Positions 29,863 to 34,352 of a stretch of 44,503 nucleotides of DNA are shown in pieces; the stretch's first letter is position 1; every line of letters starts with the position of its first letter. A model generated the notes under the pieces. The model worked only from the letters and a program-made list of their open reading frames with translations, was not told the DNA's origin and ran no database searches. The DNA lies in the NCBI GenBank assembly GCA_030765865.1, contig JAVCDK010000156.1:1-44503 (forward strand), given 5' to 3'. The translations under genes were made by a program, and so were the position numbers. This DNA is from Candidatus Celaenobacter antarcticus. GTDB lineage: Bacteria; Cloacimonadota; Cloacimonadia; JGIOTU-2.

Positions 29863-31116
29863 TTAAATTTTTCTTGGATCTGTTATCACACCCTTGCGCG
29901 CAGAAGCAGCAACTGTTTCCGGAGATCCAAGATATATCTCTGCGGTCTTATTGCCCATTCTACCTTTGAAGTTTCGGTTCGCAGTTGAGACAGTCACCTC
30001 ATTATCTGCCATCACACCCTGATGAGCGCCAAGGCATGGTCCACATCCGGAAGGAAGTATCACTGCACCTGCCTTGTTGAGAATACTCATAGTGCCGTCA
30101 TCGGTTGCTTCTTGATATACTTCTCTGGATGCAGGGAGAATTAGCAACCTGGTGGAAGGATGTACTGTTTTTCCATTCAATATGGCTGCAGCCGCATGAA
30201 GGTCTTCTAACCTGCCATTCGTGCATGTGCCAATGAAACACTGATCGACCTTGATCCCTTCAGCTTCCGAAATATCTTTCACGTTATCGACGGTATGCGG
30301 GAAAGCAATTTGCGGAGTGATCTCATTCAAATTATAGGAATACTCCTTTTCATAAATTGCGTCATCATCCGCCCAAACCGCATGATACTCCTCAACATTA
30401 TGCTCTTTCAGCCATTTTTTGGTCAGCTCATCAACAGGGAATGCACCATTCTTTGCACCCATTTCCACTGACATATTTGCAATTGTCATTCTATCTGAAA
30501 TATCCAGATTTATGATGCCCGAGCCGTGATATTCAACTGATTTATAATTTGCTCCGTCAGCACCAAGATCGCCGATTATTTTTAAAATGAGATCCTTGGC
30601 GGATACCCTCTGTTGAAAACGCCTTTCCAAAGTGATCTTATATGATCTGGGAATTTTGAACCACGTCTCACCTGTTATCCAGATGCCAGCAGCTTCGGTT
30701 CTGTCAATACCTGTTGAAAAAGCACCAAATGCACCGTAAGTACAAGTATGGCTGTCACTTCCGACAATTACACTACAGGGTAAAGCAAGTCCTATTTCCG
30801 GAAGAACCTGGTGGCAAATTCCCCTGCCTATATCATAAAAATGTGTGATATGCTGCGTTTTTACAAATTCTCGAATTTCTTTATGATTGTTCGCAGTCTT
30901 TACACTTGCAGCGGGAATAACATGATCGAGCACGATCACGATGCGGTCAGGATATTTTACTTTGATACCTTCTTTAACCTGGCTGAGCTTTTTTATAATT
31001 GCAGCAGAATTATCATGAGTTAGAATATAATCCGGCTCAACAAAAACGATTTCACTTTCTTGAACTGATTGTCCGATCTTGTTTTCAAAAACTTTCTGTA
31101 TAAAAGTTTTACCCAT
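29863..31116 (-). CDS. LeuC/homoaconitase-type large subunit, orphan
   Basis: 417 residues, the length of the archaeal-type 3-isopropylmalate dehydratase or homoaconitase large subunit. The [4Fe-4S] ligands are in FIGTCTNGR and PSGCGPCLGAHQG. VGSDSHTCTYGAFGAFSTGID and ADGANYKSVEYHG are conserved substrate and cluster regions. AGGAGC precedes the ATG. The enzyme isomerises 2- to 3-hydroxy acids, as in leucine or lysine synthesis, but needs a LeuD small subunit, and none is in this window. A NifU-like gene follows. The exact substrate (isopropylmalate, homocitrate or citramalate-type) is not decided. Confidence 0.88.
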   Translation of the reverse strand: MGKTFIQKVFENKIGQSVQESEIVFVEPDYILTHDNSAAIIKKLSQVKEGIKVKYPDRIVIVLDHVIPAASVKTANNHKEIREFVKTQHITHFYDIGRGICHQVLPEIGLALPCSVIVGSDSHTCTYGAFGAFSTGIDRTEAAGIWITGETWFKIPRSYKITLERRFQQRVSAKDLILKIIGDLGADGANYKSVEYHGSGIINLDISDRMTIANMSVEMGAKNGAFPVDELTKKWLKEHNVEEYHAVWADDDAIYEKEYSYNLNEITPQIAFPHTVDNVKDISEAEGIKVDQCFIGTCTNGRLEDLHAAAAILNGKTVHPSTRLLILPASREVYQEATDDGTMSILNKAGAVILPSGCGPCLGAHQGVMADNEVTVSTANRNFKGRMGNKTAEIYLGSPETVAASARKGVITDPRKI

Positions 31117-31144
31117 TTATGCTCCTATATATAAATACATTTTT

Positions 31145-31174
31145 ACCACTAAAAGCACGAAATTCACGAAAAAA
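31145..31174 (+). repeat. CACGAAA-type repeat, left copy (inverted to 31578-31607)
   Basis: Reads ACCACTAAAAGCACGAAATT then CACGAAAAAA. The reverse complement of 31578-31607 matches it at 24 of 30 positions without gaps. The two copies enclose the GxxExxY gene. Another copy, in the orientation of the right one, is at 34301-34337. Confidence 0.8.
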
Positions 31175-31209
31175 CTTTTGGAAATTCAATTTTCTTTTTT
31201 TTCTTAGCT

Positions 31210-31611
31210 TCATAACACGATCCTTTCAATCTCTACTTTGGGAAATGCTGAAAAGTTCAACAGTAAACCCAGCTTCAAATGAGTTACTCTAAGATAATTC
31301 AAGATATGAGCTCTATGTACATCAAGAATCTGGCTAACTGTTCTTATTTCAATAATAATTGAATCAAAACATATAAAATCTGCTCTATAAGCGTGGGTTA
31401 ACGGAATGTTTTTATAATTTAATCTGATCTCTGCCTGGTTTTTAAATGGAATTTTTCTTAAAGTAAACTCTTTTTCTAAACATTTTTGATAGACTGCCTC
31501 TAAAAATCCTACCCCCATTTTTTTATATACTTCAAAAATTGCCCCCTGAAGCGCGTAACTTTCATTTTTGAAAAATATTTTTTCGCGTCTTTCGTGTATT
31601 TCGTGGTTCAT
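31210..31611 (-). CDS. GxxExxY family protein
   Basis: 133 residues from MNHEIHERREKIFF. The family motif is GFLEAVYQKCLEKEF (G-x2-E-x2-Y), followed by IPFKNQAEIRL, YRADFICFDSIIIEIRTV and QILDVHRAHILNYLRVTHLKLGLLLNF. The strand pattern D...IIIEIR sits in the same order as the D...ExK core of PD-(D/E)xK nucleases, with Arg in place of Lys. The longer open frame upstream overlaps the aldolase gene and is rejected. The first dozen codons are supplied by the CACGAAA repeat on the minus strand. Function of the family is unknown. It looks inserted between the aldolase and LeuC-type genes. Confidence 0.88.
   Translation of the reverse strand: MNHEIHERREKIFFKNESYALQGAIFEVYKKMGVGFLEAVYQKCLEKEFTLRKIPFKNQAEIRLNYKNIPLTHAYRADFICFDSIIIEIRTVSQILDVHRAHILNYLRVTHLKLGLLLNFSAFPKVEIERIVL
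31578..31607 (-). repeat. CACGAAA-type repeat, right copy
   Basis: On the minus strand ACCACGAAATACACGAAAGA then CGCGAAAAAA, overlapping codons 2-12 of the GxxExxY gene. Inverted relative to the left copy, so the gene lies in a unit of about 463 bases with inverted ends. Confidence 0.8.
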
Positions 31612-31624
31612 GATATTATACTTC

Positions 31625-32230
31625 TTATGCCTTTTCAATATCAGATAGAACCTGAATAATATTTTCCCCTGCCTGCTGGCAAGTTTTTCCAAAACTTAAA
31701 AATCCGTGATCTTTCATGATAAGAATACTGTCATTTTCCCCGAGCGCATCACATACGGATTCCATCAGCTCAAGGGTTCCATAAGGATACCATTTTTTTG
31801 TAGATTTCAATCCCAATTGTGAGCAGTGTGCGAGTAAATGCCGGTTATGACCGTGAAAAATTATTTGAATATCACTCCGCTTCTGATAAATACTGTTATG
31901 CAGCATTGTTTCAGATGACGGCTCCTCAGTACCGGTCACATCGATCTGTCTCGAAGGAATATCAACATTGATGATCTCAACAAAATCTTTTTCCGCGAGT
32001 GCTCCAAGGTTTGAACCTGCTGCAGTGATAATAAACCTGCCTCCGATCCGCGCACTGAGATTACCGGCAGAGCTTGTGATAAGAGGATTTACCGGGTGTG
32101 GATATGTAGGAATGCAACCCAATTCCGACAACTTCTTCCCCCACTTAATGAGCTCTTGCTGAATTGGGAAATCGATTATCTTTTTTTCTGAAAATCGTAC
32201 GCTGAACTTTATTCCCTGATATTGTTCCAT
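31625..32230 (-). CDS. class II aldolase/adducin-family protein (MtnB- or Ald2-like)
   Basis: 201 residues. The class II aldolase zinc site is present: IIFHGHNRH (two His), KDHGFLSFG (third His) and the acidic catalytic residue in SSETMLH. Other signatures are SSAGNLSARIGGRFIITAAGS. Its ATG overlaps the mtnA stop by one base (TAATG), so the two are coupled. After MtnA makes the ribulose phosphate, this enzyme would either cleave it (DHAP shunt, oxygen-independent) or dehydrate it (MtnB of methionine salvage). No acireductone dioxygenase or other later salvage gene is visible here, and the organism is probably anaerobic, so the aldolase reaction is favoured. Confidence 0.85.
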   Translation of the reverse strand: MEQYQGIKFSVRFSEKKIIDFPIQQELIKWGKKLSELGCIPTYPHPVNPLITSSAGNLSARIGGRFIITAAGSNLGALAEKDFVEIINVDIPSRQIDVTGTEEPSSETMLHNSIYQKRSDIQIIFHGHNRHLLAHCSQLGLKSTKKWYPYGTLELMESVCDALGENDSILIMKDHGFLSFGKTCQQAGENIIQVLSDIEKA

Positions 32231-33873: not shown

Positions 33874-34352
33874 TTTAGGAGACAGAAGTCAGAATTCAGA
33901 AGTCAGGAGTCAGAATTTACAAGCCTGGACTTCATCGGCTTTTAAGCTTGATGGAGTTCAGTGCGGAAAATGAAATAGCACACTGATAAACGTTGATTGG
34001 ACCGATTTGCGCTGATAAATCTTAAGATATGGAGTTTACAATTGCGGTAAGCAGGATGTGTAGTACAGGGTGACGCTTACATGCCATCTTAATACTGAAC
34101 CCCATGCAACTTCGTCGGCCAGCTAGCGGAAGTCCAGTCTGAAGTATAAACCTTGCGAACGGTTAATGAAAGAAAATTTCGCAACGGTTTTTAGTTAAAT
34201 TGTACAGAATAGACTCTTCGACAAGCTCAGAGTGACAAATTATTTATATTCGATTGGATTTTTTTATAATTACTTCTCGCTGTGTTCTCTGTGATTTTTT
34301 TACGATTTTCGTGCTTTTCGTGTCATTTCGTGGTTAAATATTTTTATTCGAA
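33874..34352. repeat. long repeat-filled intergenic region
   Basis: No gene. In order: AGAAGTCAGAATTC...AGAAGTCAGGAGTCAGAAT direct repeats (33884-33916), two CGCTGATAA units, GGCCAGCTAGCGGA (near 34120), AAACCTTGCGAACGGTT (34148-34164, also at 25421), CTCTTCGACAAGCTCAGAGTGAC (near 34212), a CACAGAG-type copy (34275-34294) and a CACGAAA-type copy (34301-34337). At least six repeat families meet here. No promoter or terminator stands out. Confidence 0.75.

Follow-up and report, generated by a model that had tools for sequence, protein, structure and literature searches.

With a probability of roughly 0.55, the GxxExxY gene described here is carried by a small mobile unit with repeat ends, which is moved by the GxxExxY nuclease acting on its own arrays. 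The gene is encoded on the minus strand (31210..31611) of a stretch of 44,503 nt of Candidatus Celaenobacter antarcticus (GCA_030765865.1, contig JAVCDK010000156.1), hereafter called the window. The unit has the appearance of a very small type of mobile DNA that has so far gone unrecognised, because gene-less occurrences of its repeats exist and related species lack the repeats at corresponding sites.

The GxxExxY locus of the window

The gene is enclosed by two inverted arrays: (i) a head array, ACCACGAAATACACGAAAGACGCGAAAAAA in minus-strand reading (31578..31607, minus strand), which encodes codons 2-12, the 133-residue protein thus starting with MNHEIHERREK, and (ii) a tail array (31145..31174, plus strand), its inverted partner, with 24 of 30 bases identical. 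When 31100-31700 was shuffled 300 times with dinucleotides preserved, the best inverted 30-mer matched at 23 positions and none reached 24. The first-pass annotation had reported inverted 30-base copies enclosing this gene alone, the right one supplying its N-terminus, and a solo copy further along; all of this is borne out, except that neither copy is an undivided 30-mer, since each is built of three arrayed units (CACGAAANN) about 9 nt long. Next to the tail array, an outer stretch (31127..31144; AAAAATGTATTTATATAT on the minus strand), which is kept beside GTGGT in other units, abuts AGGAG and the start of leuC, and is missing in congeners without the unit.

The solo head array (34301..34337, minus strand) is of the same type as in the window unit, and no inverted partner was detected within 620 nt on its inner side. 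It lies in an intergenic stretch of about 460 nt (33880-34345) containing remnants of several repeat types, namely GTCAGAA-type direct repeats (33880-33914), degenerate CACTGAT-like units (33970-34020) and a CACAGAG array (around 34276-34294) in addition to the CACGAAA solo array; this stretch is perhaps a landing site for several element families. In the genome as a whole, the pattern CACGAAA-N1-3-CACGAAA occurs 26 times and the reversed control pattern 0 times; four matches to TIGR04256 are present, one of which is a fragment, and most arrays are gene-less.

Repeat pairs around GxxExxY genes

GxxExxY loci were collected from the organism's own family, from its phylum and from named contigs (mostly Bacteroidota; best 80 of 586 matches). 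Matches were found in 13 of 17 genomes of the family, with up to 13 per genome, and TIGR04256 matches in 82 of 124 genomes of the phylum, a subset of which was fetched as phylum loci. The test set comprised 176 distinct intact genes with both flanks (41 own/family, 67 phylum, 68 named), the upstream flank being scored by local alignment against the reverse-complemented downstream flank. The median score was 27 when both flanks came from one gene, 17 when they came from two different genes and 16 at 445 neighbouring open reading frames (ORFs), and own pairs were separated from mismatched pairs with an AUC of 0.82. Under a stricter control of 118 distant ORFs, in which inverted or direct orientation was counted, 99 of the 176 loci scored above the 99% level and 136 above the 95% level; the other 40 genes, below the 95% level, have no detectable repeat pair. 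The comparison of GxxExxY loci proposed in the first-pass annotation thus showed the association to be recurrent among GxxExxY genes and in more than one phylum.

Direct flank matches arise from gene-less units located on both sides of the gene or in tandem with it. At four loci (L001, L035, L147, L150) the tandem order gene-less unit, gene, gene-less unit produces long direct repeats around GxxExxY, and the top direct flank score among the 176 loci was 238. The commonest array period in flanks with a clear array is 9 (59 flanks), followed by 10 (22 flanks). Units found by eye include CACGAAA, CACAGAG, CACAAAG, CACAAAA, CACAGAT, CACGAACT, CGCAAAG and CGCAGAG; one GxxExxY gene (L061) has a very different, GGAGATAAGG-like unit in both flanks. 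Furthermore, small GC-rich inserts (about 28-75 nt, e.g. CGTCTTCACTCCGTTACGCCGTTGCAGG) occur within arrays of various types, repeatedly directly after CAC (L036, L039, L055, L057, L066, L072, L079, L011, L022, L312 and L318), and seem to be a second-level insert targeting the array grammar. GxxExxY is also present in eight plasmid records.

Pairing of arrays with protein subfamilies

The upstream array of one gene was compared with the downstream array of another, which excludes any help from orthologous flanks. The median cross-end score rose with protein identity, from 16 (<40%) to 24 (70-85%) and 29 (>85%). Within the same genome, the two ends of a gene scored a median of 27 against each other, versus 18 against an end of a GxxExxY gene of <50% identity (n=166 comparisons, AUC 0.83, p 8e-18; Mantel-type permutation 0/300). 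The array therefore belongs with the protein subfamily and not with the genome, because own ends beat the ends of other GxxExxY genes inside single genomes. Each GxxExxY subfamily has an array sequence of its own.

Gene-less units

A 123-nt gene-less unit of the organism's own genome was matched in seven of the eight genomes of the genus (G000, 14 matches; G001, 9; G003, 15; G004, 1; G005, 8; G006, 19; G007, 20). The eighth, G002, has 0 matches and a gene of the window subfamily, so that the number of gene-less units does not strictly track the number of genes. Core and outer tail are conserved in the gene-less copies, which are up to 95% identical between species. They are not solely products of independent decay, the core being conserved between unrelated sites, although decay has also affected gene-bearing copies (L079, L080).

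The genome of Flavobacterium phragmitis (L220, G124) contains 48 occurrences of the head pattern AACCGCAARGNNCGCNARG and none of the control. Nine inward pairs within 600 nt (counted from the pattern listing) and 0 outward pairs are present; GxxExxY lies within one of the inward pairs, spaced by 517 nt, and the remaining eight are spaced by 69-138 nt and hold no gene. In another genome (G126), two of three head-pattern matches are the ends of its GxxExxY unit. Several gene-less units form strong hairpins when folded: the DNA folding z-scores were -5.2 to -8.9 for five Flavobacterium units and -5.3 and -2.5 for two units of the organism's own genome.

The first-pass annotation had stated that its reading would fail if the repeat were equally common beside unrelated genes. 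Taken from repeat to gene, this is partly the case, because repeats occur gene-less, in many copies, singly beside unrelated genes and also in genomes with no GxxExxY match; taken from gene to repeat, the association stands. The strongest alternative, which we regard as unlikely, is that another enzyme moves the arrays, as independent MITE-like repeats, and that GxxExxY is a tolerated passenger caught between two of them. The mostly gene-less arrays of the organism's own genome are in line with this, as are four genomes that carry arrays and no GxxExxY match (G014, 99% complete, with 31 hits; G004, 11; G045, 13; G046, 11). Two observations speak against it: the array sequence follows the GxxExxY subfamily, even inside one genome, and in every inspected case of inward arrays spaced by about 430-600 nt (window, L335, L353, L354) the cargo is GxxExxY and nothing else.

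The GxxExxY protein

The window protein matches TIGR04256 (132.3 bits, cut-off 35), whose curated name carries no function, and PF13366 (PDDEXK_3; 129.3 bits, cut-off 22), the sole Pfam family matched. Its structure model (mean pLDDT 91) has a restriction-endonuclease-like fold of the PD-(D/E)XK, RecB/Cas4-like type, the nearest fold being that of Cas4 SSO0001 (4ic1; Z 10.0, rmsd 3.2 over 98 residues; Foldseek E 0.0016). The sequence search retrieved no solved structure (best E 0.14), and a search of PHROGs gave weak hits and nothing stronger. A defence role was considered and not retained, as 5027 defence models yielded weak Cas4 hits alone (best E 0.00034).

Residues E38, Y41, E88 and N119 are invariant in the 176 loci, D78 is present in 174 of them, K90 in 175 and Q102 likewise in 175. 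The sole exception at K90 (R) and the sole exception at Q102 (H) are both found in the window copy, which accordingly reads E-x-R where the family has the D...E-x-K motif. Over 72 close pairs, median pN/pS was 0.15 and the maximum 0.37; this calculation omits 11 of the 176 genes, in which the stored protein is not an exact translation of the stored DNA, and the residue counts include them. GxxExxY is therefore a selected, working protein family, because catalytic residues are kept and pN/pS is low. Judging from its two substitutions, the window copy itself is probably catalytically dead.

Empty and filled sites

Empty sites, which the first-pass annotation had suggested looking for, do exist in congeners. 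At the leuC junction, G000 and G002 carry the unit and G003 and G006 a decayed form of it; G001, G004 and G005 lack it, and in these three the end of the aldolase gene continues straight into the ribosome-binding site (RBS) of leuC. Likewise, three sites of gene-less units are continuous in congeners: L011 in both G005 and G004, L022 in G005, and L026 in G004 and G002 (for L011 in G004 and L026 in G002, on the basis of a continuous match alone). The L026 site holds a full gene in G006 and gene-less or deleted forms in G000, G001, G003 and G007. These empty and filled sites show gain or precise loss of the unit; for the leuC-site copies of G000 and G002, the tree did not separate one insertion from two.

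Target duplications, also anticipated in the first-pass annotation, did not emerge as a general feature: a duplication of the RBS-ATG stretch is suggestive at L011 and L022, and own versus mismatched start regions gave p 0.13 over 69 loci (76 codirectional loci minus seven without ATG), with no very recent insertion among them. The proposal of a mobile unit with terminal repeats and a cargo gene is thus upheld as regards the repeats, the N-terminus, the recurrence and the empty sites, but not as regards a general target-site duplication, and the window copy is probably inactive. Two further observations concern related copies. A GxxExxY cluster in G017 (C1, about 793-828 kb; L139, L144, L155) includes three copies 95-97% identical, with common flanks, and represents a local duplication, and two close GxxExxY proteins (L040 in G009 and L339 in G101; support 99/99) occur in genomes of different families, possibly owing to horizontal transfer.

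No very recent copies were found at unlinked sites, within-genome unlinked pairs being at most 84% identical. Together with the decay of the leuC-site units of G003 and G006 and the loss of K90 and Q102 in the window copy, this would fit relics of past mobility, the arrays being decaying remains and the nuclease being kept for another job (e.g. defence or repair). We consider this improbable, given the weakness of the defence-model hits and the high identity of gene-less copies between species.

The insertions sit in gaps between genes and, in the window genus, mostly directly before a Shine-Dalgarno site: the tail is immediately followed by GGAG and ATG in 16 of the 17 copies with a visible right end (out of 30 fetched), some of which represent one site in different species. 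This position and the folding of the units as hairpins could point to fixed regulatory or terminator hairpins, or to a part in the function of the protein N-terminus, in an immobile unit. Such an explanation is improbable, as the same sites are occupied in some congeners and empty in others, and as copies with a conserved core are dispersed at unrelated genes. Lastly, chance similarity of low-complexity sequence, which has nothing but the simple make-up of CACGAAA in its favour, is ruled out by the shuffles, the pattern counts in the organism's own genome and the recurrence over 176 loci.

Comparison with known systems

In the sections of Bertels and Rainey (2011; PMC3116915) that were consulted, the REPIN-RAYT system consists of inverted repeat doublets of about 100 nt with predicted hairpins, dispersed outside genes, with single repeats as well as doublets and, for each repeat group, one dedicated gene next to a few of the copies. 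As far as these sections go, GxxExxY units resemble this system in their inverted doublets of about 100 nt with predicted hairpins, which are dispersed outside genes and also found gene-less, in the singles beside doublets and in the own gene per repeat group. They differ from it in (i) the protein, a PD-(D/E)XK nuclease where REPIN-RAYT has a Y1 tyrosine (HUH) transposase, (ii) ends made of short-period arrays starting with RCCRC, and (iii) a gene placed inside the inverted pair and often taking its N-terminus from it. Membership in REPIN-RAYT was rejected, no Y1 transposase being encoded (PF13366 as sole Pfam match; restriction-endonuclease-like model).

The MITEs of insertion sequences have terminal inverted repeats, gene-less short forms and intergenic positions. 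GxxExxY units share these three features but have no DDE or HUH transposase, and no general target duplication was found. A review of MITEs is available (PMC10969869).

Rpn/YhgA-like proteins are widely spread and of PD-(D/E)XK type, and we know of no private inverted arrays associated with them. A part in DNA mobility has been proposed for these nucleases (PF04754) in the extracts consulted of PMC5350276 and PMC10327210. The window protein is not a member, PF04754 being absent from its Pfam hits at E 0.001, where PF13366 alone was found.

Cas4/RecB-type nucleases carry a Q-x-x-x-Y motif, and Cas4 has conserved cysteines of an Fe-S cluster. GxxExxY proteins share with them the fold and the D...ExK and Q-x-x-x-Y motifs; unlike Cas4, they have no cysteine in the columns that are invariant, or nearly so, among 29 sequences, and no CRISPR context was noticed in the loci read. 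Membership in Cas4 was therefore rejected on the missing cysteines and the weak profile hits. A literature search found no description of the arrays or of a GxxExxY function; in the extracts consulted, GxxExxY is mentioned in passing (PMC8934634; the name is also present in PMC12085832) and a repeat-like string occurs within a primer (PMC3090145).

Proposed mechanism and significance

In the preferred reading, the unit consists of two inverted ends, each built from roughly three short repeats (mostly 9-10 nt long, about one helical turn, usually starting with RCCRC), which enclose either one GxxExxY gene (unit of about 450-550 nt) or a short spacer alone (about 70-170 nt). GxxExxY is a candidate mover of the arrays: the nuclease would recognise its own phased arrays and would cut or release the unit, perhaps as a single-stranded hairpin. 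Gene-bearing and gene-less units could both be moved in this way, as RAYT is thought to move REPINs, and the host would rejoin the DNA.

More tentatively, GxxExxY and its arrays may constitute a new class of autonomous elements of about 460-550 nt, among the smallest known, with a lone RecB/Cas4-like nuclease recognising a helically phased array. Array and nuclease would co-diverge into many private specificities, and one genome could host several families that do not cross-talk, each with its own gene-less hairpins.

The subfamily-private repeat provides a testable substrate for a common protein family of unexplained function. If the proposed reading is true, it would explain odd N-termini (e.g. 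NHEKHEK and NTENTE) as well as many intergenic repeats that otherwise have no explanation, and GxxExxY with its arrays would be a nuclease-based counterpart to REPIN-RAYT.
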